Made by a program: the position numbers and the translations under genes
Notes under the pieces: generated by a model
Databases searched by the model: none
What the model was told of the DNA's origin: nothing
Seen by the model: the letters and a program-made list of their open reading frames with translations, nothing else
Shown here: positions 9,596-21,260 of the stretch, piece by piece
How the letters are laid out: the number at the start of each line of letters is the position of its first letter
Numbering within the stretch: the stretch's first letter is position 1
Source: Duganella sp. BuS-21
GTDB taxonomy: Bacteria; Pseudomonadota; Gammaproteobacteria; Burkholderiales; Burkholderiaceae_D
Assembly: GCA_041874725.1 (NCBI GenBank)
Contig: CP097466.1
Location: 3,100,001 to 3,164,000 of the forward strand
Direction of reading: 5' to 3'
DNA: 64,000 bases

Positions 9596-9978
9596 TTTTT
9601 TTAGAGAAAAAGGTACTGCGGTTGAGGTCGCTCGATTTCGAGCATGCTCCAGGGATGGAGCACAGCAAAGGCAAGTGGGCACTGCCGTGGTACTTGTGCA
9701 GGCCGTCAAGATGAAACGAAGAAGAGAATGATACCATGATTTTGCTATAAGGCAACTAAATACAGCGGTTTTTCAAAAGATTTCTATTTATAAAACAATG
9801 ACTTGTGAAGAAATTGCATAAAAGTAAGTAATTCTACCGAGTAAATCCAGGTGAACAGATGTTTCGTTTCAGCTACCCTTAAGCTTAGACAGGGAAACTC
9901 GGAATTACCAGTCCCGTGCGCATAGCGCTATCCTGTAGAATGAAGCAACTGATGATTAACACGTTTCGGAGTAAGCCG
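9596..9978. other. Intergenic region between divergent chemoreceptor and prc
   Basis: These 383 bases are AT-rich and contain no convincing gene. The leftward chemoreceptor promoter candidate is listed separately. For prc, TTACCA (9916-9921) and TATCCT (18-base spacer) are a weak promoter match; a perfect 10-base palindrome ATAGCGCTAT (9922-9931) overlaps it. GGAG at 9968-9971 is the prc ribosome binding site. No terminator or repeat element is seen. Confidence 0.45.
9728..9755 (-). promoter_or_regulatory. Candidate sigma-70 promoter for the chemoreceptor gene
   Basis: On the reverse strand TTGCCT (9755-9750) and TATCAT (9733-9728) are separated by 16 bases: 4/6 and 5/6 consensus matches. 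This leaves a 5' leader of about 125 bases before the ATG at 9595. No sigma-28-type motif was spotted. This is a pattern match only. Confidence 0.4.
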
Positions 9979-12234
9979 ATGAAGAAGCAATTGCTGTTGG
10001 TGGCCGTCCTGTCGGCCCTGTCAGTGCAGGCCGGCGCCGCCGTGCCAGAGAAAACGGCCGACACCATCCTCAAACCCCAGCCGGGCCAAACCCAGGCCGC
10101 CCTGTGGGCCTCGCGTGTGCTGGGCAAGCTGCACTACAAGCCCGCGCCGCTCGACGACGCCATGTCCGAGAAAATCTTCGACCGTTACTTCAAGTCGCTG
10201 GACGGGGAAAAAATGTTCTTCACCCAGGCCGACATCGACCAGTACGCCATCGTGCGCACCCGCCTGGACGACGCCATCAACGGCGAAAACCTCAGCGTAC
10301 CGTTTGCCATCTTCAATCTCTACCAGCAGCGCTTCAACGAGCGCATCGCCTATGCGCGCGACCTGGTCAAGAACGGCAAATTCGAATTCAGCTCCGACGA
10401 AAGCTACCAGTACGACCGCGAAAAAGCCGACTGGGGCAAGAGCGACGCCGAGGTCAAGGACTTGTGGCGCAAGCGCGTCAAGAACGAGTGGCTGCGCCTG
10501 AAGCTGGCCGGCAAGGAAGACAAGGCCATCCGCGAAACGCTGGACAAGCGCTACGAGGGCTACCTGAGCCCGTCGCGCAAGCTGACCAATGAAGACGTGT
10601 TCCAGATCTTCATGAACGCCTACGCCATGTCGATCGAGCCGCACACCAACTACCTCGGCCCGCGCGCCGCCGAGAACTTCGACATCGCCATGCGCCTGTC
10701 GCTGGAAGGCATCGGCTGCGTGCTGCAATCGCGCGACGACTACACCGTGGTGCGCGAAGTGGTGCCCGGCAGCCCGGCCGGCCTGTCCGGCAAGATCAAG
10801 GTCGGCGACAAGATCGTCGCCGTCGCCAAAGACGAGAAAACGCCGCTGACCGAAGTGCTGGGCTGGCGCCTGGACGACGTGGTGGCGCTGATTCGCGGTC
10901 CCAAGGATTCGACCGTCAAGCTGGAGATCATTTCCGCCGACGCCGGCCCGGACGGCAAGCACAACTTCGTCTCGCTGGTGCGCCAGAAGATCAGCATGGA
11001 AGAGCAGTCGGCCAAGAAAACCATCTATGAAGTCAAGGATGGCGCCGCCAAAAGGCGCGTGGGCGTGATCTCGCTGCCGACCTTCTACATGGACTTCGAA
11101 GCGCGTCGCAAGGGCGACAAGGACTTCAAGAGCGCCACCCGCGACGTTCAGCGCCTGCTGGTGGAACTGAAGAAGGATAAAGTCGACAACGTACTGATCG
11201 ACCTGCGCAACAACGGCGGCGGCTCGCTGACCGAAGCGGTGGAACTGACCGGCCTGTTCATCGACAAGGGCCCGGTGGTGATGCAGCGCAGCGGCGACAA
11301 CAAGGTCGAAGTGGAGAGCGACACCAACGCCGGCATGGCGTGGGACGGCCCGATGGGCGTGCTGATCAACCGTGGCTCGGCCTCGGCGTCGGAGATCTTC
11401 GCGGCGGCGATCCAGGATTACGGCCGTGGCGTCATCATCGGCGAACCGAGCTTCGGCAAGGGCACGGTGCAGACCCTGTTCGGCCTGGACCGTTTTGCCC
11501 AGAGCGAGAAAGTGCATTACGGCGAGCTGAAGTTCACGATCGCGCAGTTCTTCCGCATCAACGGCGGCACCACGCAGCTGCGCGGCGTCACGCCGGACAT
11601 CAAGCTGCCGACCATGGGCGATTCGGACAGCTTCGGCGAATCGAGCTACGAGAACGCCTTGCCGTGGACCCAGATCAAGCCTGCCATCTACATCCCGGCC
11701 GGCGAGGTCAAGGAAGTGGTACCGCTGCTCGACAAAAAGCATGAGGCCCGCGTCGCCAAGGACAAGGACTTCCAATACCTGGCCGAGGACATCGCGCTGG
11801 TGAAAAAGCAGCGCAAGGAAAACTCGATCTCGCTGAACGAAACCGTGCGCCGCAAGGAGCGCGACCAGCAGGAAGCGCGCGCCAAGCTGCGCGAGGCGCG
11901 TCTGCTGGCCAATACGCCGGGGGCCGACGATCCTATCCTGGTGCCGGATCCGAAAGATGCGCTGAACAAGGCGATCTCGGCCAAGCCGGCCAACGGCAAG
12001 CCGGCGCCGTCGCCGAAGGTGGCGGGGGTCAAGGGCGCGCTGCGCAGCGACGACGGCCTGCAAGGCGCCGAGCGTTCGCTGGCGGCCGAGCTGGAGGCGG
12101 AAAAAGCCGCCAAGGCGGCCAAGGATGTGCTGCTGAATGAAGCCGTGCACATCCTGGCGGACGAAGTCAGCCTGCTGAAGACCGATACCCGCATGGCTTC
12201 CCGCGTGCTGCCGTACGCGGCCGATGCCAAGTAA
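9979..12234 (+). CDS. prc: Carboxy-terminal processing protease Prc/Tsp (S41A)
   Basis: A 751-residue periplasmic tail-specific protease. It has a signal peptide (MKKQLLLVAVLSALSVQAGA), an N-terminal Tsp domain, PDZ at about 230-330 (SLEGIGCVLQ..VVPGSPAGLSGKIKVGDKI), and the S41 core with the Ser in NRGSASASEIFAAAIQDYGR (about residue 465) and Lys in PSFGKGTVQT (about 492). The long C-terminal region is typical of the Prc/DUF3340 family. It degrades or trims proteins with nonpolar C-termini, such as PBP3 and lipoprotein partners. The start at 9979 was chosen over 9916 because it gives the signal peptide and sits seven bases after GGAG. A strong terminator follows. Confidence 0.95.
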   Translation: MKKQLLLVAVLSALSVQAGAAVPEKTADTILKPQPGQTQAALWASRVLGKLHYKPAPLDDAMSEKIFDRYFKSLDGEKMFFTQADIDQYAIVRTRLDDAINGENLSVPFAIFNLYQQRFNERIAYARDLVKNGKFEFSSDESYQYDREKADWGKSDAEVKDLWRKRVKNEWLRLKLAGKEDKAIRETLDKRYEGYLSPSRKLTNEDVFQIFMNAYAMSIEPHTNYLGPRAAENFDIAMRLSLEGIGCVLQSRDDYTVVREVVPGSPAGLSGKIKVGDKIVAVAKDEKTPLTEVLGWRLDDVVALIRGPKDSTVKLEIISADAGPDGKHNFVSLVRQKISMEEQSAKKTIYEVKDGAAKRRVGVISLPTFYMDFEARRKGDKDFKSATRDVQRLLVELKKDKVDNVLIDLRNNGGGSLTEAVELTGLFIDKGPVVMQRSGDNKVEVESDTNAGMAWDGPMGVLINRGSASASEIFAAAIQDYGRGVIIGEPSFGKGTVQTLFGLDRFAQSEKVHYGELKFTIAQFFRINGGTTQLRGVTPDIKLPTMGDSDSFGESSYENALPWTQIKPAIYIPAGEVKEVVPLLDKKHEARVAKDKDFQYLAEDIALVKKQRKENSISLNETVRRKERDQQEARAKLREARLLANTPGADDPILVPDPKDALNKAISAKPANGKPAPSPKVAGVKGALRSDDGLQGAERSLAAELEAEKAAKAAKDVLLNEAVHILADEVSLLKTDTRMASRVLPYAADAK

Positions 12235-12347
12235 GTAAGGTCATAGGTTTTGTGAATAGCCGCTATTGCTAATATAAATTGGATTAATATGCTGTGATGC
12301 AGCATACTTCATTTGTCTCCTCTATCTCCTCCAAGGAAATAGACTTC

Positions 12348-12376
12348 AGCCCGCTCCCTGAGCGGGCTTTTTTTTT
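12348..12376 (+). terminator. Rho-independent terminator after prc
   Basis: Arms AGCCCGCTC (12348-12356) and GAGCGGGCT (12360-12368), loop CCT, then a run of T through 12376. It is perfect over nine pairs and about 115 bases after the prc stop. The rest of the 12235-12533 gap holds an AT-rich stretch before the hairpin and copy B of the post-terminator repeat after it. Confidence 0.88.
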
Positions 12377-12453
12377 GGTTCATCGTGCTTGGTGGGGCGC
12401 GCTTTTACAGCGACAAGCAACGCCAGGCCTAGCCCACCAAACCTATTCCCGTA
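12370..12453. repeat. Post-terminator repeat, copy B
   Basis: This is the counterpart of 4933-5035: TTTTTTTGGTTCATCG (12370-12385), AGCGACAAGCAACG (12409-12422) and TTCCCGTA (12446-12453) occur in the same order, with a shorter first spacer (23 versus 42 bases). It again begins inside the T-tract of a terminator. Function unknown. Confidence 0.55.
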
Positions 12454-12533
12454 CATACGTGAGGATGCTTTTTTTCGTCTAAACGCCGAAGATCGGGTAA
12501 GCTTTCTACAGGTCAACGTTTAGGTTCGGATAC

Positions 12534-14681
12534 GTGTCTCCAACTCAATTCAAAATAGCCGTGCTGGCCCTGGCGCTGGGCGGTGCGGCGGTCGGCGGCG
12601 GTGTCGCTTATCTGCTGGTCCACACACCAAAACAGGACGCCGGTGGGCAAGCAGCGCCTTTTGCCGTCAAGGGCACGCCCTCGGGCTGGCCGGCGCGCGT
12701 CGGTACCCTCGCCGGCGACGGCTTGCCGGGCGCCGCCAATGGCAGCGGCCGGCGCACCCGCTTCTCGGATCCGTTCGGCGTGGTGCTCGACCGGCAAGGC
12801 AATCTCTACGTTGCCGACGGCGGCGACAACAACAGTATCCGCAAGATCGATCCGGCCGGCGTCAGCTCCACCCTGGCCGGCGGCAACGAGGGCTATGCCG
12901 AAGGCAAGGGCGGCGCGGCGGCCTTCCACACGCCGTCGGGCTTGGCAATCGACAGCGCCGGTAATCTGTACGTGGCCGACACCGGCAACAACGCCATCCG
13001 CAAGATCACGCCGGAGGGCGTGGTATCGACGTTGGCCGGCGACGGCCTGGCGGGCGACAGGGACGGCAACGGTGCTGCGGCGCAGTTCAACGGCCCGGTC
13101 GGCGTGGCGATCGACGCCGAGGGCGTGCTGTACGTGGCCGATACCTATAACGACCGCATCCGCCGCATTACGCGCGACGGCACCGTGAGCACCATCGCCG
13201 GTGGCAAGCGCGCCGGCATGGCCGACGGCCCGGCCGCCCAGGCGCGCTTCGATACGCCGACCGGGCTGGCCGTCAGCGCCGCCGGCGACATCTATATCGC
13301 CGACACCGCCAACCACGCCATCCGCAAGCTGGGCAAGGACGGCAAGGTCACCACCATCGCCGCCGCCAAGGACGACGACCGCGATGCGCTGCTGCGCTCC
13401 CCGGTCGGCATCGCGATAACCGGCGACGGCTTCCTGTACCTCGCCAGCAGCGCCCACGGCCGCGTGGCGCAACTGACCCCGGCCGGCGAGGCGGTGGCGC
13501 TGCGCGACGTCGATCACCCGGCCCAGCCCGGCTACGGCGCCGACGGCGGCGTGCGCCTGTACTCGCCGCGCGGCATCGCGCTGGCGGGCGACGGTTCGCT
13601 GTTCGTGACCGATGGCGCCACGTTCCGCCTGCATCATATCGCCATGGTCGGCGCCGATGAGGCACCGCTGCCGGACCCGCCCTGGCCCGGCCTGCCGGTG
13701 CGCAGTGCGACCATGCAATGGCCGGTCAAGCCGCACAACCAGCCGCATGAAGTGGTGGGACTGATGGGCGAAGTGCGCGGCAATTTCGACGGCGAAAGCC
13801 GCGACCATTTCCACACCGGGCTCGACGTGCAAGGGGCGATCGGCACGCCGGTGCAGGCCATCGGCGCGGCCAAGGTCAGCGACCCGCGCGCCGGCTGGGG
13901 CTATGGCGAATTGTCGGAAGGCCTGGCGCTGGGCGGCCTGCAATATGTGCACATGCGTGTCGGCCGCGACGGCAAGGATAAAGTCCTCGATGCGCGCTTC
14001 CTGGTCGCCAAAAACGACCAGGGTGCGGCGCAGGCGGTGCGGGTCAAGCGCGGCACCCGCTTCGCGGCGGGCGACACACTGGGCACCATCAACCGCATGG
14101 CGCACGTCCACCTCGACTACAAGCCCAACGGCGGCCCGGTGAATCCCTTGCTGCTGCCCTTCATCGGTCTGGAAGATACGATTGCGCCGCAGATCAAGCG
14201 CATCAGCGTGGTGGACGGCAAGGGCAAACCCTTGACCGAGAAGCGCGACGGCCGCCTGCTCATCCGGCGCAGCCTGGGCGAGGCGCAGATCGTGGTCGAT
14301 GCCAGCGATCAGATCAACGGCAACCAGCAGCGCCGCCGTCTCGGCCTGTACCGGCTCGGCTATCAGCTGCTGAACCAGCAGGGCGATACCATACCGGGCA
14401 TGACCGAGCCCATCATCACGCAGCAATATGACCGCCTGCCGCGCAATCGCGAGGCGGTCAAGCTGGCGTATGCGCCCGACAGCGGCATCACCGTGCACGG
14501 CGCGCGCGAGACACGTTTTGCCTACGCCATCAACAACCGGCTGATCAACGGCAAAATGACGCCGGGGGCTTGGAAAGTGGGGGAGTTAGGGCCGGGCAAT
14601 TACATCCTGCGCATTACGGCCGAGGACTATGCCGGCAACGCAGCCGACCGTAACCGCGAGCTGGCGGTCACGATCGACTAG
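12534..14681 (+). CDS. NHL-repeat beta-propeller fused to M23-like metallopeptidase domain
   Basis: A 715-residue protein with an N-terminal signal anchor (about 6-28). Five to six NHL repeats follow, each with the pattern GVAIDAxGxLYVADTxNxxIRKI...STLAG (residues about 55-380). An M23/lysostaphin-like domain then carries HTGLD (about 428-432) and HVHLDY (about 523-528), matching the HxxxD and HxH zinc ligands. The C-terminal about 180 residues look like a beta-rich, Ig-like domain (APQIKRISVVDGKG to DYAGNAADRNRELAV). Inference: an envelope protein whose propeller binds a partner and whose M23 part may cut peptidoglycan. The start is GTG at 12534; the ribosome site is weak. I know of no named family with this architecture. 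Confidence 0.72.
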   Translation: MSPTQFKIAVLALALGGAAVGGGVAYLLVHTPKQDAGGQAAPFAVKGTPSGWPARVGTLAGDGLPGAANGSGRRTRFSDPFGVVLDRQGNLYVADGGDNNSIRKIDPAGVSSTLAGGNEGYAEGKGGAAAFHTPSGLAIDSAGNLYVADTGNNAIRKITPEGVVSTLAGDGLAGDRDGNGAAAQFNGPVGVAIDAEGVLYVADTYNDRIRRITRDGTVSTIAGGKRAGMADGPAAQARFDTPTGLAVSAAGDIYIADTANHAIRKLGKDGKVTTIAAAKDDDRDALLRSPVGIAITGDGFLYLASSAHGRVAQLTPAGEAVALRDVDHPAQPGYGADGGVRLYSPRGIALAGDGSLFVTDGATFRLHHIAMVGADEAPLPDPPWPGLPVRSATMQWPVKPHNQPHEVVGLMGEVRGNFDGESRDHFHTGLDVQGAIGTPVQAIGAAKVSDPRAGWGYGELSEGLALGGLQYVHMRVGRDGKDKVLDARFLVAKNDQGAAQAVRVKRGTRFAAGDTLGTINRMAHVHLDYKPNGGPVNPLLLPFIGLEDTIAPQIKRISVVDGKGKPLTEKRDGRLLIRRSLGEAQIVVDASDQINGNQQRRRLGLYRLGYQLLNQQGDTIPGMTEPIITQQYDRLPRNREAVKLAYAPDSGITVHGARETRFAYAINNRLINGKMTPGAWKVGELGPGNYILRITAEDYAGNAADRNRELAVTID

Positions 14682-14689
14682 TGAGGCGA

Positions 14690-14947
14690 TCAAGCGGCGG
14701 TCAGCATGCCGGACAGCAGGAACGGCACCATGGTGCCGGTGCTTTCCAGCTGTTTCATCAGTTCGTTGCGGTCACCGGCGATCTCGGCCTTCGATGGCAG
14801 GCTGAGCTCGTCCGGCAAGTCTTGCGGCGACAGCGCGATGCCGAGGCCGGCGAGGGTGGCAACGGGATCGTTCAGGAGCTGTGCGCGAAACTTGTCATCG
14901 CTCGCCAGTTTGTCGAGGACGGCGCTGAGTTCGTTGATAGTTTGCAT
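14690..14947 (-). CDS. NHLP/Nif11-like leader peptide, putative modified-peptide precursor
   Basis: An 85-residue acidic protein without signal peptide or membrane segment. Residues 1-35 (MQTINELSAVLDKL, then FRAQLLNDPVATLAGLGI) follow the nitrile-hydratase-like leader pattern: helix, FRxxLLxDPxxxLxxxGI, then a segment starting LSPQDLPDELSLP. The C-terminal about 25 residues include STGTMVPFLLSGMLTAA, a short Thr/Ser and hydrophobic tail that could be a core peptide. The flavin-dependent SagB-type gene lies divergently 143 bases away. From memory, NCBI families for putative modified peptides of this type co-occur with SagB-related dehydrogenases; assignment by homology search is needed. There is no GG cleavage motif, and Cys is absent. 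Confidence 0.65.
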   Translation of the reverse strand: MQTINELSAVLDKLASDDKFRAQLLNDPVATLAGLGIALSPQDLPDELSLPSKAEIAGDRNELMKQLESTGTMVPFLLSGMLTAA

Positions 14948-15090
14948 GATGTATTGAGCCCTATAAAGGATTTAGAGGCACGGCTGTGCCCCAATCCATC
15001 CTACGCCGAACACCGTTGAATGCCAAGAACTTCATTGCTTACTTGCTAACGATAAGCTAGACTCGAAGCACCCCGAGCAAGGAGGAAAAG

Positions 15091-16251
15091 ATGAAGCTAC
15101 GCCGTTGCGCCGTGCTGTATCTGGAGTCCCGTGAAGCACTGGCTATCGATTGGAAAAGTGTGTTGTCAGGCGGCAACGCGCTGGCCGCCAGCACGCATTG
15201 GGTGGCGCTGGCGCCGCATCTGGACCTGGAACTGGACGTCGGCGCGGCGCAGGTGGCCGCGCTTGGCGCCATCGGTCAGACCGTCTGGAGCGAGCGCGCC
15301 GACGCCGAGCGGGGTTTCGGCGAAGACCTCATCGCCCAACTGCTGGAGCTGGGCCTGCTGATCGGCGACACGCCGCAGTACGCCGCCCAGCGCGAGCGCG
15401 ACGATACCTTGCGCAATACCCACTGGCGGCCGCTGTCGGCGCTGGCCCATACCTTCGGCCGCTGGCGCGGGGTGACCGGCGAGACCGGCATGGAGGCGCC
15501 CAGCTTCCAGGCCTTGCTGGAGCGTTACGGCGAACCACCGCCGCCGACCCTGGACCTGGCGCCGGAGGCGGCCGTCAAACTGCCCGGCGCCGCCAGCGGA
15601 CGCCTGGACGAGCAACTGCTGCAGCGCTACACGGGCCGCAATTTCGATCTGCAGGCCAGCGTGCCGCTGGATGTGGCGGCGCGGCTGCTGCAGCGCACCT
15701 TCGGCGCCCAAGAGGTGCGCAAGGTCGGCCCGCATTCGTCGGTGCTGAAGAAAACCAGTCCTTCCGGCGGCGGCCTGCACCCGATCGAAGCCTACGTGCT
15801 GGTGCAGCGCGTGGACGGCGTGGCGCCCGGCCTGTATCACTACCACCCGATCGCGCATGAGCTGCGTCCGCTGCGTGCGCTTGACGCCGAGGCGGCCGGC
15901 GCGCTGGCGCGCTACATGCTGGCCGATCAGCACTGGCTGGCGAGCGCGCCGCTGCAGGTGGTGATGGTGGCACGCATGGAACGCAGTTTCTGGAAGTACC
16001 GCAATCACCAGAAGGCCTACCGCGCGCTGGCGCTGGACGCCGGCCACCTGTCGCAGACCTTCTACCTGCTGGCGGCCGAGGCGGGACTGCCGGCCTTCAT
16101 CACCGCCGCCATCAACGACGCCGATATCGAGCAGACGCTGGGACTGGACCACCTGCGCCACGCGGTGGTGGCGATGTGCGGCTGCGGCCCGGCCGGCAAG
16201 GGCGAGCGCACCATGGTGGAATTGCGTTACGGCGAGACCGAAGCGATCTGA
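15091..16251 (+). CDS. SagB-family peptide maturation dehydrogenase
   Basis: A 386-residue protein. The C-terminal about 250 residues are a nitroreductase/SagB FMN fold: YTGRNFDLQASVPLDVAARL, the phosphate-site loop TSPSGGGLHPIEAYV, GLYHYHPIAHELRPL, and the helix YRALALDAGHLSQTFYLLAAE. SagB-like enzymes oxidise azolines or related bonds in ribosomally made peptides. The N-terminal about 120 residues are extra; WVALAPHLDLELDVGAAQ through AQLLELGLLIGD resembles a winged-helix peptide-recognition (RRE/PqqD-like) unit. A strong AGGAGG precedes the ATG. A weak promoter match TTGCTT-17-TAGACT is at 15035-15063. The 3' end overlaps the convergent kinase gene by 25 bases. No YcaO cyclodehydratase is present in the window. 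Confidence 0.8.
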   Translation: MKLRRCAVLYLESREALAIDWKSVLSGGNALAASTHWVALAPHLDLELDVGAAQVAALGAIGQTVWSERADAERGFGEDLIAQLLELGLLIGDTPQYAAQRERDDTLRNTHWRPLSALAHTFGRWRGVTGETGMEAPSFQALLERYGEPPPPTLDLAPEAAVKLPGAASGRLDEQLLQRYTGRNFDLQASVPLDVAARLLQRTFGAQEVRKVGPHSSVLKKTSPSGGGLHPIEAYVLVQRVDGVAPGLYHYHPIAHELRPLRALDAEAAGALARYMLADQHWLASAPLQVVMVARMERSFWKYRNHQKAYRALALDAGHLSQTFYLLAAEAGLPAFITAAINDADIEQTLGLDHLRHAVVAMCGCGPAGKGERTMVELRYGETEAI

Positions 16252-19200
16252 CCAGGCGTGTCGCTGGCCGCCTGCACGCCGTCGAGCACGGCTTCAAGGG
16301 CGGCGCCGAAGGCGGCCAGCGCGTCCTCGCAATGCACGCGGCGCGGCGACAGCAGCAATTGCTCCAGTTCGCTGGCGGCGTGGTGCAGCGCGTGCATGGA
16401 GAGGTTGCCGGCCGCGCCGCGCACCTTGTGCACCAGCTGCGCGGCCTGCTCATAAGCGCCGTGTTCCATCGCCGCGAGCAGCTGCTGCGGGCTGGCCTGG
16501 AAGTCCGTCACGAAGCGCTCCAGCAGCATGGCCAGCAGCTTGCGGTTGCCGCCGAGACGCGCCAGCACCGTCGCCATGTCGATGCCCGGCAGGGCGGGCG
16601 GCGGTTCGGCGGATGTGGCGTCGGCAAGCTCCGCCGCTTCTGACGCGGTCTCGGCGGCGGGCGCTGGCACTGCCGGCTGCACCCGCTCCGGCGGGCGCCG
16701 GATCTGGCTGGCCAGCACTGCGAACAGGCGTTCCGGCTCGATCGGCTTGGTCACATAGTCGTTCATGCCCATGGACAGGCTGCTTTCGCGGAAGCCGGCC
16801 ACCGCATGCGCCGTCATGGCGATCAGCGGCAGTTGTGCGTGCTGCGGCTTGCTGCGGATGTGGGCCGAGGCCTGGTAGCCGTCCATGCCCGGCATCTGGA
16901 TATCCATCAGCACCGCATCGAAGTTGTGCTGGTCGACCATCTGCACCGCCGCCGCGCCGCTGTCGGCCAGTTCCACCATCACGCCGGCGCGCAGCAGCAC
17001 TTCGCGCGCCACCTGCTGGTTGATCACATTGTCGTCGACCACCAGCACGCGCGCGCCGGCGATGCGTTGCGCCATTGCCGACGGCGCGTTCGAGGCCGCG
17101 CCGGCCGGCCGTGCCGGCAAGGCCAGCCCAAGCCCGACCAGCACCGCCTCCAGCAACTGCTGCGCCTGCAACGGCTTGACCAGCACGGCGGCGACGCCGG
17201 CCAGGCCGACCGCCTGCGCCGCCGGTTCGCGCGCGAACTCGGTCATCATCATCACCAGCGGCGGCACCGGCGCCAGGGCCAGCGTCAGCTCGGCGTGCAG
17301 CAGGTGGGCGGCGCCGGCGCCGTAGCCGCCGGGCAGGTCCCAGTCCAGCAGTACCAGGTCAGCGCCCTCCGCGGCACCCTGGCCGTGGCCTGCTCGCAGC
17401 AAGTGTTCGACCGCCGCCGCGCCGCCGTCGACGCTGTGCACGCCGAAGCCGTCGCTGCGCAGCTGGCGTTCCAGCATATCGCGCAGCATGGGGTTGGCCG
17501 TCACCACCAGCAGGCGCCGGCCGGCCGCCTCGGCCGGCAGCGGCGCCGGCGCCGGTTGCGCGCCTTGCTGGCGCTGCAGCGTCAGGTCGAAATGGAAGCG
17601 GCTGCCCACGCCGGGCTGGCTCTCGATGCCGATCACGCCGCCCATGGCCTGCACCAGTTGCTGCGAAATGGCCAGGCCGAGGCCGGTGCCGCCGTACAGG
17701 CGCGTGGTGCTGGTGTCGGCCTGCGAGAAGGCGCGGAACAGGCGCGCCTGCTGTTCTTCGCTGATGCCGACGCCGGTGTCGTCGACCATGAAGCGCAGCC
17801 GCACCGCCGTATCGGGCTGGTCGGCGACCGCCTGCAGCAGTTCCACGCGCAGGCCGATATGGCCGCCGGCGGTGAACTTGAGGGCGTTGCCGACCAGATT
17901 GACCAGCACCTGGTTCAGGCGCAGCGGATCGCCGATCAAGCGCAGCGGCACCTCGGGCGCGGCCCAGGCCAGCAGCTCCAGGCCTTTTTCGGCCGCGCGC
18001 CACGAGAACAGGTCGGCGATCTGGCTCAACGTATCGTCGAGGTCGAAGGGCAGGGCTTCCAGCTCCAGCTTGCCGGACTCGATCTTGGCGAAGTCGAGCA
18101 CGTCGTCGATGATGCTCAGCAGGTTCTGGCCGGCGCGGCCGATCTTGGTGAAATAGTCGCGCGGCTTGGCCGGCAAATCCAGGTGGGTGCCGAGGCCGGC
18201 GAAGCCGAGGATGGCGTTCATCGGCGTGCGGATTTCGTGGCTGATATTGGCCAGGAACTCGCTCTTGGCGCGGGTCGAGGCTTCGGCGTCGGCGCGCGCC
18301 TGCTGGATGGCGCGGATCGCACTGGCCTTCTGGAACGCCGAGACGAACGGTTCCTTGAGCGCCCGGAACATGTCCAGGTCCTTGCGGGCGAACGGCGTGT
18401 CCTGCTTGAACACGAGGTAACCCTGCACCTGCTGCTCGACCCGGATGCGCACCGCCAGCAGGGTGCTTTGCTTGAGGAACATGTCCGGCGCGATGCTGCT
18501 GGCGCCGTCGACGAACTGCGCGCGCGCCGCCGCCAGCGACATGCCGGCGCAGGCCGACGGCAGCGCGTCGTGGCCCCAGCTGGCGCGGATCTCCAGTGTG
18601 TCGCCGGGCGCTTCGCAGGTCAGCGCGTAGGCCACGCCGACTTCGCCGATGGCGCTCGATTCGCGCAGGATGGTGTGCAGCAGGGCGTCGAAATCCAGCT
18701 CGTCGTTGATCGACTTGACGATGGCGTGCACGCGCTCCAGGTGCAGCGTGCGCGAATACACCTGCTGCTGCAGGTTGCGCACGCGCCAGCGGTACATGCC
18801 CCACGCCAGGGCCAGTACGCCCAGCGTGGCGCCCAGGCGCGTCCACCAGGTCTGATACCAGGCCGGCAGGAAGTGCAGTTCCATGCTCAGTTCATGCGGA
18901 CTCCAGGCGCCGTCGCGGTTGCTGCCGCGCATGGCCAGCCGGTAGCGGCCGGGGGGCACGTTGGCGTAGGTGGCGGCGCGGCGGCTGGCATCGGCCTCGA
19001 TCCATTCCTTGTCGTAGCCTTCCAGGCGGAAGGCGTAGCGGTTGCGCTGGCTGGCGGAAAAGTCCAGCGACGCCACCTCCACCTCCACCTTGCGGGTGCC
19101 GGGCGGGATCGCCAGCGCCGGCCCGCCCGCGGCCAGCAGGGGCGCCGCCGCCACCGCGTCGCGGTCCAGATGCACCGCGCTGACCACCAGCGGCGGTTGG

Positions 19201-21260
19201 TAGCGCCAGGGCTGCGGCGTTTCCGGCCGCACCACCACATAGCCGCCCGAAGTGCCGAACACGACCTCCGATTGCGCCGTCATGCCGACCGCGCCGACTA
19301 TGTAAGGCTGGAACACCAGGCCGGCGGCGCGGTCCAGCACCTGCACTTGCAGCGTGGCGGTATCGATCGCGGCGATGCCGTCGGAACTCGAGGCCCACAT
19401 GCGGCCGCGTTGGTCCGGGTGCAGGGCGGTGGCGGTGTTGTTGGGCAGGCCATTGCCGACGCCCACGCGGCGGAACTGCGGCGTGCCGTCGGCCGCGCGG
19501 CCTTCCAGGATGGCGATGCCGTCGCCGATACTGCCGACCCACAGCCGGCCTTGGCCATCGAAGGCCAGGCTGGTGATGAAGCTGCGCGGCAGCGACGTGG
19601 CGGACGTCGGGCCGGGCGTGAACTGCTCGGCCTTGCCGGTGGACGGCTCTACGCGATTCAAGCCGTTGCGGGTGCCGACCCACAGCGCGCCGTCGGGCCC
19701 GGCACGCATGGCGGTGATGCGGTTGTCGCTCAGCCCGCCGCTGGCTGCGCTGTCCTGGCTGAACACCTGGGCGCTGCGGTGGCGCAGTTCGTAGCGCATC
19801 AGGCCGGTGGGCACGGCCAGCCAGAGCACATCGCCCTGGCGCACGATGCTGCCGATGCGCGGGTAGGGATCGCCCAGCGGCAGCGGGACGCGGGTGGCGC
19901 GGGTGCCCTTGCCGCTGGTGTGGTAGAGGCCCAGCGCGGTGGCGATCCAGGCTTCCTGCGGCTCGGCTTCGACCATGCCGAGGATCAGGCGCTTGGGCAG
20001 GGCGGTGTCGGGGTGGTCGGGATCGGGCCGCAGGCCGGCGCTGCGGCTGCCGTCCGGCCCGACCAGGTCGATGCCCTGGTCGCCCAGCGCCACCCACAGG
20101 CGGCCGCCGGCGTCGTTCATGAAGGCGAAGGCGGAGATTTCCGGCAGGCCGACGCCATCGAGAATGGTATCGACGGTGCGGTTGGCCGGGTTGTGGATGT
20201 CGACGCCGCGCTCGTTGGCCACCCATACCAGGCCGCTGCGGTCGCGCCACAGGGCGGCCACGCGGTCATGGCCCAGGCTGATGGGGATGGCGGGCCGGTG
20301 CACGATGCGGCGGCCGCGGCCGTTGGTGTCGAACTCGATCAGGCCGCCGCCGTAGGTCGCGGCCCACCAGGTGCCGGGCATGGTTTCGGTCAGCGACAGC
20401 ACCATCGCATTGCCGGCGTCCGGCACCTGATCGATGCTCAGCAGGCGGGCGCCGTCGCCGGCGCGGGCCACGCCGATGCCGCTCTTGAGCGTGCCGAACA
20501 CCACTTCGCCCGCACTGCTGCTGGCCAGCGACAGGACGGCATCGCCGGCACCGTTGACGATCGGCAGATCTTCGAAGCGCCCGCTGCGGGCATCGCGCCG
20601 CGTCAGGCCGGCGTTGGAGCCGATCCACAGGTCGCCGGCGGTATCGGTCACCAAGGCGCGGATCTGGTTGGCGCTGGCGCCGCCGGCGGCGCTGGCGTCG
20701 CGCGCGACATGGCGGACCGCGCCCTGGCGCGCGGCATCGATGTAGTCGAGGCCGCTGGCGGTGCCGACCCAGATGCCGCCATGGGCATCGCTGGCCAGCG
20801 CGATGATGGCGGGGCTGCTCAAGCCTTTCGGCCCGGCCGCATAGCGCACGAAGCGTTCGGTGTACTTGTCGTACATGGCGACGCCGCCGGTGGTGGTGCC
20901 GAGCCACAAACGGCCTTGGCGGTCGACGTGCAGGGTCTGGACGAAATCGCCGGGCAGGGAATGGGGATCCTCGGCGCTGAAGAAGAAATTGCGCATGCGG
21001 TAGCCGTCCCAGCGGCCGAGGCCGGACTGGGTGGCAAACCACATGAAGCCGTCGCCGTCCTGCGCGATGTTCATCGTAATGGGATTGGGGAAGCCGCGTT
21101 CGGCCGGCACCAGGTGCTCGAACATGGTGGGCGCCAGCTTTTGCCAGGGAGTGGGCGCAGCCCACGCCAGCAGCGGCGCCAGGGTCAAGGCCGCCGCCGT
21201 GCTGCGTCCAGCAAAAGTAGAGAAAAAAGTGCGCACAGAGGACCGTTTAAGAGCTCCCAT
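16227..21260 (-). CDS. Two-component-propeller hybrid histidine kinase with two receivers and Hpt
   Basis: A 1677-residue one-gene phosphorelay of the hybrid type. Seen in order: signal peptide, a 14-bladed-style regulator propeller (about 35-730, many WIGTxxGL/LWVGT blades), Y_Y_Y domain (about 735-800), membrane helix (about 805-825), a GAF-like cytosolic region, HisKA with [11 protein letters not shown] (His about 1008), HATPase (GTGLGLAIS), receiver 1 (about 1247-1376), receiver 2 (VDDN, LMDIQMPGMDGY, about 1400-1520) and Hpt with VHKVRGAAGNL (about 1610). Receiver 1 has VVTANPM where the acidic pair is expected. I start at the ATG at 21260; a TTG 12 bases upstream is possible. In related systems such kinases sense oligosaccharides, and the next leftward-reading genes encode GH105/DUF4861. 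Confidence 0.92.
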   Translation of the reverse strand: MGALKRSSVRTFFSTFAGRSTAAALTLAPLLAWAAPTPWQKLAPTMFEHLVPAERGFPNPITMNIAQDGDGFMWFATQSGLGRWDGYRMRNFFFSAEDPHSLPGDFVQTLHVDRQGRLWLGTTTGGVAMYDKYTERFVRYAAGPKGLSSPAIIALASDAHGGIWVGTASGLDYIDAARQGAVRHVARDASAAGGASANQIRALVTDTAGDLWIGSNAGLTRRDARSGRFEDLPIVNGAGDAVLSLASSSAGEVVFGTLKSGIGVARAGDGARLLSIDQVPDAGNAMVLSLTETMPGTWWAATYGGGLIEFDTNGRGRRIVHRPAIPISLGHDRVAALWRDRSGLVWVANERGVDIHNPANRTVDTILDGVGLPEISAFAFMNDAGGRLWVALGDQGIDLVGPDGSRSAGLRPDPDHPDTALPKRLILGMVEAEPQEAWIATALGLYHTSGKGTRATRVPLPLGDPYPRIGSIVRQGDVLWLAVPTGLMRYELRHRSAQVFSQDSAASGGLSDNRITAMRAGPDGALWVGTRNGLNRVEPSTGKAEQFTPGPTSATSLPRSFITSLAFDGQGRLWVGSIGDGIAILEGRAADGTPQFRRVGVGNGLPNNTATALHPDQRGRMWASSSDGIAAIDTATLQVQVLDRAAGLVFQPYIVGAVGMTAQSEVVFGTSGGYVVVRPETPQPWRYQPPLVVSAVHLDRDAVAAAPLLAAGGPALAIPPGTRKVEVEVASLDFSASQRNRYAFRLEGYDKEWIEADASRRAATYANVPPGRYRLAMRGSNRDGAWSPHELSMELHFLPAWYQTWWTRLGATLGVLALAWGMYRWRVRNLQQQVYSRTLHLERVHAIVKSINDELDFDALLHTILRESSAIGEVGVAYALTCEAPGDTLEIRASWGHDALPSACAGMSLAAARAQFVDGASSIAPDMFLKQSTLLAVRIRVEQQVQGYLVFKQDTPFARKDLDMFRALKEPFVSAFQKASAIRAIQQARADAEASTRAKSEFLANISHEIRTPMNAILGFAGLGTHLDLPAKPRDYFTKIGRAGQNLLSIIDDVLDFAKIESGKLELEALPFDLDDTLSQIADLFSWRAAEKGLELLAWAAPEVPLRLIGDPLRLNQVLVNLVGNALKFTAGGHIGLRVELLQAVADQPDTAVRLRFMVDDTGVGISEEQQARLFRAFSQADTSTTRLYGGTGLGLAISQQLVQAMGGVIGIESQPGVGSRFHFDLTLQRQQGAQPAPAPLPAEAAGRRLLVVTANPMLRDMLERQLRSDGFGVHSVDGGAAAVEHLLRAGHGQGAAEGADLVLLDWDLPGGYGAGAAHLLHAELTLALAPVPPLVMMMTEFAREPAAQAVGLAGVAAVLVKPLQAQQLLEAVLVGLGLALPARPAGAASNAPSAMAQRIAGARVLVVDDNVINQQVAREVLLRAGVMVELADSGAAAVQMVDQHNFDAVLMDIQMPGMDGYQASAHIRSKPQHAQLPLIAMTAHAVAGFRESSLSMGMNDYVTKPIEPERLFAVLASQIRRPPERVQPAVPAPAAETASEAAELADATSAEPPPALPGIDMATVLARLGGNRKLLAMLLERFVTDFQASPQQLLAAMEHGAYEQAAQLVHKVRGAAGNLSMHALHHAASELEQLLLSPRRVHCEDALAAFGAALEAVLDGVQAASDTPGQIASVSP

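Follow-up and report, generated by a model that had tools for sequence, protein, structure and literature searches.

The window analyzed here is a 64,000-nucleotide stretch of Duganella sp. BuS-21 DNA (contig CP097466.1, positions 3,100,001 to 3,164,000 of the forward strand), and positions are counted from its first letter. An earlier note, made from the sequence alone, had described a minimal cassette of the type that produces ribosomally synthesized and post-translationally modified peptides (RiPPs), in which a precursor with a nitrile-hydratase-like leader peptide (NHLP) is paired with a SagB-family dehydrogenase. Open reading frame (ORF) calling gave ORFs of 85 and 386 residues on opposite strands, divergent and separated by 143 bases, and the smaller product has no cysteine, all as described there. 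The cassette is not minimal, however, because a hybrid histidine kinase, beyond the region then considered, is a third conserved neighbor. The 3' ends of the kinase (16227) and the enzyme (16251) overlap by 25 bases. Profile searches returned a single match each for the precursor and the enzyme in the whole genome. The features of the cassette are as follows.

14690–14947, minus strand: precursor-like protein of 85 amino acids with an NHLP-type N-terminal region, Cys-free (TIGR04509 match; 48 called copies in the genus).
14708–14722, minus strand: codons of FLLSG (residues 76–80), an instance of the tail motif F-x-L-[SAT]-G and the proposed modification site (motif in 48/48).
15091–16251, plus strand: SagB-family dehydrogenase of the nitroreductase fold, 386 amino acids, with an extra N-terminal part (TIGR04511, TIGR03605, AF2 model).
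15991–15999, plus strand: codons of W301-K302-Y303, aligned with the WKY of ThcOx and invariant in 51 aligned enzymes.
16227–21260, minus strand: hybrid histidine kinase of ~1677 amino acids, start inferred, the ORF extending to 21272 (Pfam, conserved neighbor, tree).

The precursor scored 57.5 bits against TIGR04509 (NHLP-related RiPP peptide, cut-off 34). The score against the Os1348-family model NF038399 (39.1 bits) was marginally below the cut-off of 40, and that against the NHLP leader family TIGR03793 was weak (18.5 bits, cut-off 50.9). Among solved structures, 6LK7 ranks first against the precursor profile (E 3.8e-4). Residues 20–37 are FRAQLLNDPVATLAGLGI and the tail is MVPFLLSGMLTAA. 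Near the C-terminus, F-x-L-[SAT]-G is present in every one of the 48 precursors called in the genus. Forty-four of these are Cys-free, and the Cys residues of the other four are at residues 48–51.

The enzyme matched TIGR04511 (SagB_rel_DH_2) over residues 3–380 with 505.3 bits (cut-off 240) and the SagB domain model TIGR03605 with 125.3 bits (cut-off 78.4), in agreement with the SagB-family assignment made in the earlier note. Alignments of 51 enzymes and 43 precursors, picked for spread, were used for folding. The AlphaFold2 (AF2) model of the enzyme has a mean pLDDT of 92.6. BmdC, ThcOx, and McbC top the Foldseek list, and the alignment to BmdC and ThcOx begins at residue 1. In a second comparison, plain nitroreductases were level with these three, and in sequence comparison the putative nitroreductase 3eo7 ranked first. 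The W-K-Y triplet is invariant across the 51 aligned enzymes, and its K-Y part is presumably catalytic in azoline dehydrogenases.

According to the Pfam cut-offs, the third protein has a propeller (Reg_prop), Y_Y_Y, HisKA, HATPase, two receivers, and Hpt, with GAF slightly below the cut-off, and is accordingly a hybrid sensor histidine kinase with a propeller sensor. To survey its linkage, 51 stretches around the pair genes were fetched, their genes were called by a simple script (some starts are wrong), and the products were clustered. The kinase cluster was found in 44 of the 51 loci. Among the other seven, L074 and L094 end in a piece 83–92% identical to the kinase, L111 is a 4.2-kb contig, and L117 is a weak hit from another family where the cassette is not present. 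In L105, a propeller protein ending in GGDEF (10071–13106) replaces the kinase beside the precursor and enzyme, and in L107 the enzyme is next to a shortened ORF with kinase domains (10384–12405), with no precursor called; the seventh, L070, is considered below. The genome of L107 has a precursor-kinase locus (L108) on another contig. The kinases of L083 and L103 have a GGDEF end. In a set of named genomes, largely the same ones, the kinase was printed in 43 of 50 Oxalobacteraceae-type loci. Four of the seven misses are at contig ends (L223, L234, L237, and L258), L222 (same place as L070) has the pair without the kinase, L259 (same place as L107) has the shortened kinase ORF, and in L265 (place of L102, which has the kinase) the kinase is beyond the printed stretch.

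The gene order varies among loci. In the window type, the precursor and enzyme are divergent and the kinase is convergent on the enzyme; in another, the enzyme is convergent on the precursor, with the kinase upstream of it; in others, the kinase is downstream of the precursor; and in L108–L110, the precursor and kinase stand together with no adjoining enzyme. When 57 of 60 loci were grouped by at least two shared flanking genes (L077, L107, and L258, which have no called precursor, were excluded), 14 groups were obtained. The kinase was present in 11 of them, the propeller-GGDEF protein in one (L105), and neither in two (L237 at a contig end and L117). The number 14 does not stand for independent origins because single-locus groups may be split by contig ends. 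In L108, L109, and L110, the genes after the precursor and kinase are one of the PEP-mutase family and one for a protein of 111–124 amino acids, the L108 copy of which had no Pfam or NCBIfam match.

The members of the pair also co-occur across genomes. Among 198 genomes, TIGR04511 and TIGR04509 were each over cut-off in 36, and the two sets, compared by eye, are identical, belong to one genus group, and include the genome of the window. The survey proposed in the earlier note thus bears out a conserved pair of an NHLP-type precursor and a SagB-family enzyme. A kinase was regarded as close at 700 bits or more, a threshold placed at a gap visible in the data. Among the matches listed for 45 genomes of the genus, 26 had both the precursor and a close kinase, one had the kinase only, none had the precursor only, and 18 had neither (Fisher test, 1.1e-11, uncorrected for kinship).

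Cassettes of both main settings are present together in eight genomes. Comparison of 15 and 18 loci from these settings gave mean identities within a setting and between the two of 80–82% and 57.5% for the enzyme, 63.5–83.5% and 39.1% for the precursor, and 76–77% and 50% for the kinase, respectively. The identity of all three proteins is higher within than between settings, which indicates that each cassette descends as a unit. In the 41 of the 51 loci with all three proteins called, the distance correlation was 0.967 for enzyme-kinase and 0.892 for precursor-kinase, and none of 2000 permutations was as high. A midpoint-rooted tree with long branches flagged was constructed from 57 of 60 long proteins, excluding three without a match to the propeller query. 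A 100/100 branch separates 45 linked and nine unlinked propeller proteins from three distant unlinked ones. The label changes six times on this tree, which indicates repeated gain or loss of the linkage. Shared descent is not fully corrected for in the co-occurrence, distance, and tree evidence.

The precursor and enzyme are members of the two annotated families, they co-occur, and in several settings they are linked with this clade of kinases. The three genes are very probably linked in function. The linkage is well supported, and from it and from the comparisons below we infer the chemistry and a signaling role.

In other bacteria, the partner of the pair is exchanged. TIGR04509, TIGR04510, and TIGR04511 form a trio of an NHLP-related RiPP peptide, a "putative peptide modification system cyclase," and a "putative peptide maturation dehydrogenase." The window has the first and the third, whereas the propeller hybrid kinase takes the place of the TIGR04510 cyclase, so that the trio is incomplete. 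TIGR04510 had no match over cut-off in the genome of the window, nor in the 198 genomes, a search in which four candidates were scored per genome shown and the controls gave no match either. The model does give matches elsewhere: in family f62 (Xanthomonadaceae-type), the cyclase-like TIGR04510 was matched in 95 of 149 genomes, in 93 of them over cut-off, and TIGR04511 in 91. Many of 24 sampled loci, one of them from another family, have a protein with cyclic nucleotide monophosphate (cNMP) and GGDEF domains, the cyclase-like protein, the precursor, and the enzyme in this order; one such cNMP-GGDEF protein was domain-scanned. As in the window, the precursor and enzyme are often divergent, and in some of the loci no precursor was found with the profile used. 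The cyclase-like protein contains tetratricopeptide repeats, and one of two scanned had a weak, sub-cut-off Guanylate_cyc match. In the named genomes, the cyclase was printed in 18 of 27 Xanthomonadaceae-side loci and in none of three Streptomyces loci; no propeller kinase was printed for any of these 30 loci. In L206, L207, and L202, there are arrays of several precursors with very diverse tails, and L206 and L207 also have several enzymes and cyclases. The kinase in Oxalobacteraceae-type loci and the cyclase-like protein in Xanthomonadaceae-type loci together indicate that a conserved modification pair is joined to exchangeable signaling proteins. The TIGR04509 and TIGR04511 families are both widespread, as the counts around the window and in f62 illustrate, and the link to signal transduction with an exchanged output protein suggests a function of the pair that can be tested.

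The families of both members are known already, and the kinase-linked form is a variant that we did not find described: a literature search gave no study of the TIGR04509 and TIGR04511 families as a system and no account of the kinase-linked form. Described systems close to this one are PflA–PflD and Os1348–Os1351 of Pseudomonas (PMC12636437, a preprint, and PMC7726476). Like the window, they combine a small NHLP-type precursor with a YcaO-free nitroreductase-fold enzyme, but they have GNAT, HEXXH, and MNIO-fused enzymes and exporters in place of the kinase. The nitroreductase domain of PflD is reported to convert Phe to Z-dehydrophenylalanine without YcaO on an Os1348-related NHLP precursor, and further dehydro residues made by other YcaO-free nitroreductases are suggested as a possibility (PMC12636437). 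By analogy, this is the best precedent for the chemistry of the window enzyme, and it lends an outside example to the suggestion in the earlier note that the chemistry may be different from azole formation. In Pseudomonas sp. Os17, Os1348 was detected in cells while its level in the medium was below the detection limit, loss of one efflux gene raised its cellular level, and a signaling role was raised by the authors (PMC7726476). The SagB/McbC azoline dehydrogenases, ThcOx, and BmdC share the fold, the alignment from residue 1, and the K-Y with the window enzyme, which differs in having no adjoining cyclodehydratase and a Cys-free substrate tail. The AlbA-type cyclodipeptide oxidases are filament enzymes acting on free cyclic dipeptides, and their kinship to the window enzyme is at the fold level only.

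Taken together, the locus may be a three-gene cassette in which a dehydrogenase modifies a RiPP-type precursor and the hybrid kinase uses the product or is governed by it, a reading that we consider about evenly poised between right and wrong. In this mechanism, the enzyme would hold the folded precursor and, as a flavin-type dehydrogenase, would remove two hydrogens (a 2-Da oxidation) from a residue in the C-terminal F-x-L-S-G tail without YcaO. The residue would most likely be the invariant Phe, giving dehydro-Phe, an assignment that we put forward tentatively and with rather more doubt than confidence. The product would mostly be retained inside the cell and would be a ligand or regulator of the adjoining signaling protein; in the Xanthomonadaceae-type family, the cyclase-like protein, often with its cNMP-GGDEF partner, would replace the kinase. 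The effect could run in either direction, from the peptide to the kinase or from the kinase to peptide production. That the pair usually travels with a large sensor kinase suggests that the modified peptide serves signaling and not antibiotic making, because signaling proteins recur across settings while no exporter or peptidase was seen to recur among flanking clusters, most of them judged by eye and some scanned. We regard a signaling role of the product as being as plausible as its opposite. To our knowledge, the ligands of propeller sensor kinases are mostly unknown, and the peptide is a possible input for them. The reading would also extend YcaO-free peptide dehydrogenation past one Pseudomonas example.

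More broadly, an intracellular ribosomal peptide, oxidized by a flavoenzyme to carry a dehydro-amino acid in its tail, might be the input of a general signaling module with exchangeable outputs: the hybrid kinase, kinase-GGDEF, and propeller-GGDEF proteins in Duganella and its kin, and the cyclase-like and cNMP-GGDEF proteins in the Xanthomonadaceae type. This generalization is possible but rather unlikely. If true, the signal would report the redox or flavin state by way of the flavin step.

On the side of the cassette away from the kinase, the window has two further genes of note:

9916–12234: tail-specific S41 protease, next but one to the precursor (kept in 17 loci, all of the window's setting).
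12534–14681: NHL-repeat protein, M23 peptidase match below threshold (kept next to window-type cassettes).

Several points weigh against the three-gene reading. The tail-specific protease would be in keeping with secretion or trimming of the peptide; the statement in the earlier note that no protease is next to the pair holds for the direct neighbors only, because this protease lies two genes away. Exporters are present in the related Pseudomonas clusters (PMC7726476, PMC12636437). The propeller would be expected to lie outside the membrane and the precursor inside. Both the modification of the peptide and its contact with the kinase are what we infer, and shared descent partly explains the distance correlation. 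Phe cannot be the modification site everywhere, because none is present in the last 22 residues of 16 of 36 cyclase-type precursor hits of the 24 loci, which also speaks against simply transferring the PflD chemistry. L070 (genome G025) retains the pair with the kinase missing, and the pair is without an adjoining kinase or cyclase in all three Streptomyces loci. Among the matches listed, nine of 42 close kinases (sorted by eye) are not beside a precursor, including one in the genome of the window. Eight of the nine are at places occupied by full cassettes elsewhere, beside cytochrome-oxidase-like genes (by eye) or the other flank, and therefore the pair was lost or gained beside a retained kinase; the ninth, in G040, extends up to the end of its contig. 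The unlinked kinase of the window's genome (L185, G000:C1:3446909-3449236) is an additional close kinase from this clade with no adjoining precursor or enzyme, and it occupies the place of a full cassette in other genomes. The pair in the Streptomyces loci (L280, L281, and L290) has 47–49% identity and may represent horizontal transfer or contamination.

The alternative that survives best, though we think it improbable, is an ordinary RiPP pathway with a secreted product (an antibiotic or a pheromone), for which genes of processing and export would be nearby or elsewhere, the kinase controlling only the expression of the pair. The 17 loci with the S41 protease are in its favor, as are the reports that Os1348, the nearest solved relative, is required for part of an antibiotic activity and is encoded near efflux genes (PMC7726476) and that leaders can be removed by proteins encoded elsewhere (PMC12636437). 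On the other hand, no peptidase or exporter was seen to recur across settings among the flanking clusters, most of them judged by eye and some scanned. Of the 48 precursors, 13 contain GG, usually at residue 35, and that of the window does not; GG immediately precedes the tail motif in L105 only. Moreover, the partner changes between families and yet is a signaling protein in both.

A less probable explanation is that the kinase is only a long-standing neighbor of a pair that works alone, for example in making a peptide-derived cofactor. The solitary Streptomyces pairs and the unlinked close kinases agree with this. It is opposed by the linkage across several settings and gene orders, including the precursor-kinase loci L108–L110 without an adjoining enzyme, and by the precursor-kinase co-occurrence over 45 genomes. 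Slightly less probable again is that the precursor is no substrate of the enzyme but a folded protein partner such as an inhibitor or a redox-sensitive adaptor between flavoenzyme and kinase; against this, the models passed by the enzyme are SagB-type, and BmdC, ThcOx, and McbC head its Foldseek list.

The locus differs from clusters for thiazole/oxazole-modified microcins (TOMM) or linear azole-containing peptides (LAP), which include a YcaO cyclodehydratase: none adjoins the pair, as the earlier note had observed, and the single YcaO match in the genome, at 3582405, is ~467 kb away and outside the window. Formation of an oxazole or other azole with this YcaO acting from a distance, to which the tail Ser and the invariant W-K-Y could be fitted, is very improbable, given that at least one YcaO match was found in all 45 genomes of the genus irrespective of the pair, as expected of a housekeeping protein, and that Cys is present in the tail of none of the 48 precursors.

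Finally, a putative promoter was found upstream of the precursor gene:

14998–15026, minus strand: sigma-70-like promoter, TTGGCA-17-TAGGAT (generic scan).

It was the sole site in a generic scan of 14650–15200, in which shuffled sequences gave a mean of 0.2. Of 21 precursors divergent from the enzyme, 18 have upstream at least 11 of the 12 letters of a related pattern, TTGGCA...TAGCAT, a count made on the very sequences from which the pattern was derived. In L090 (10762–11520), L094, and L098, a CRP-family regulator gene is divergent from the enzyme.
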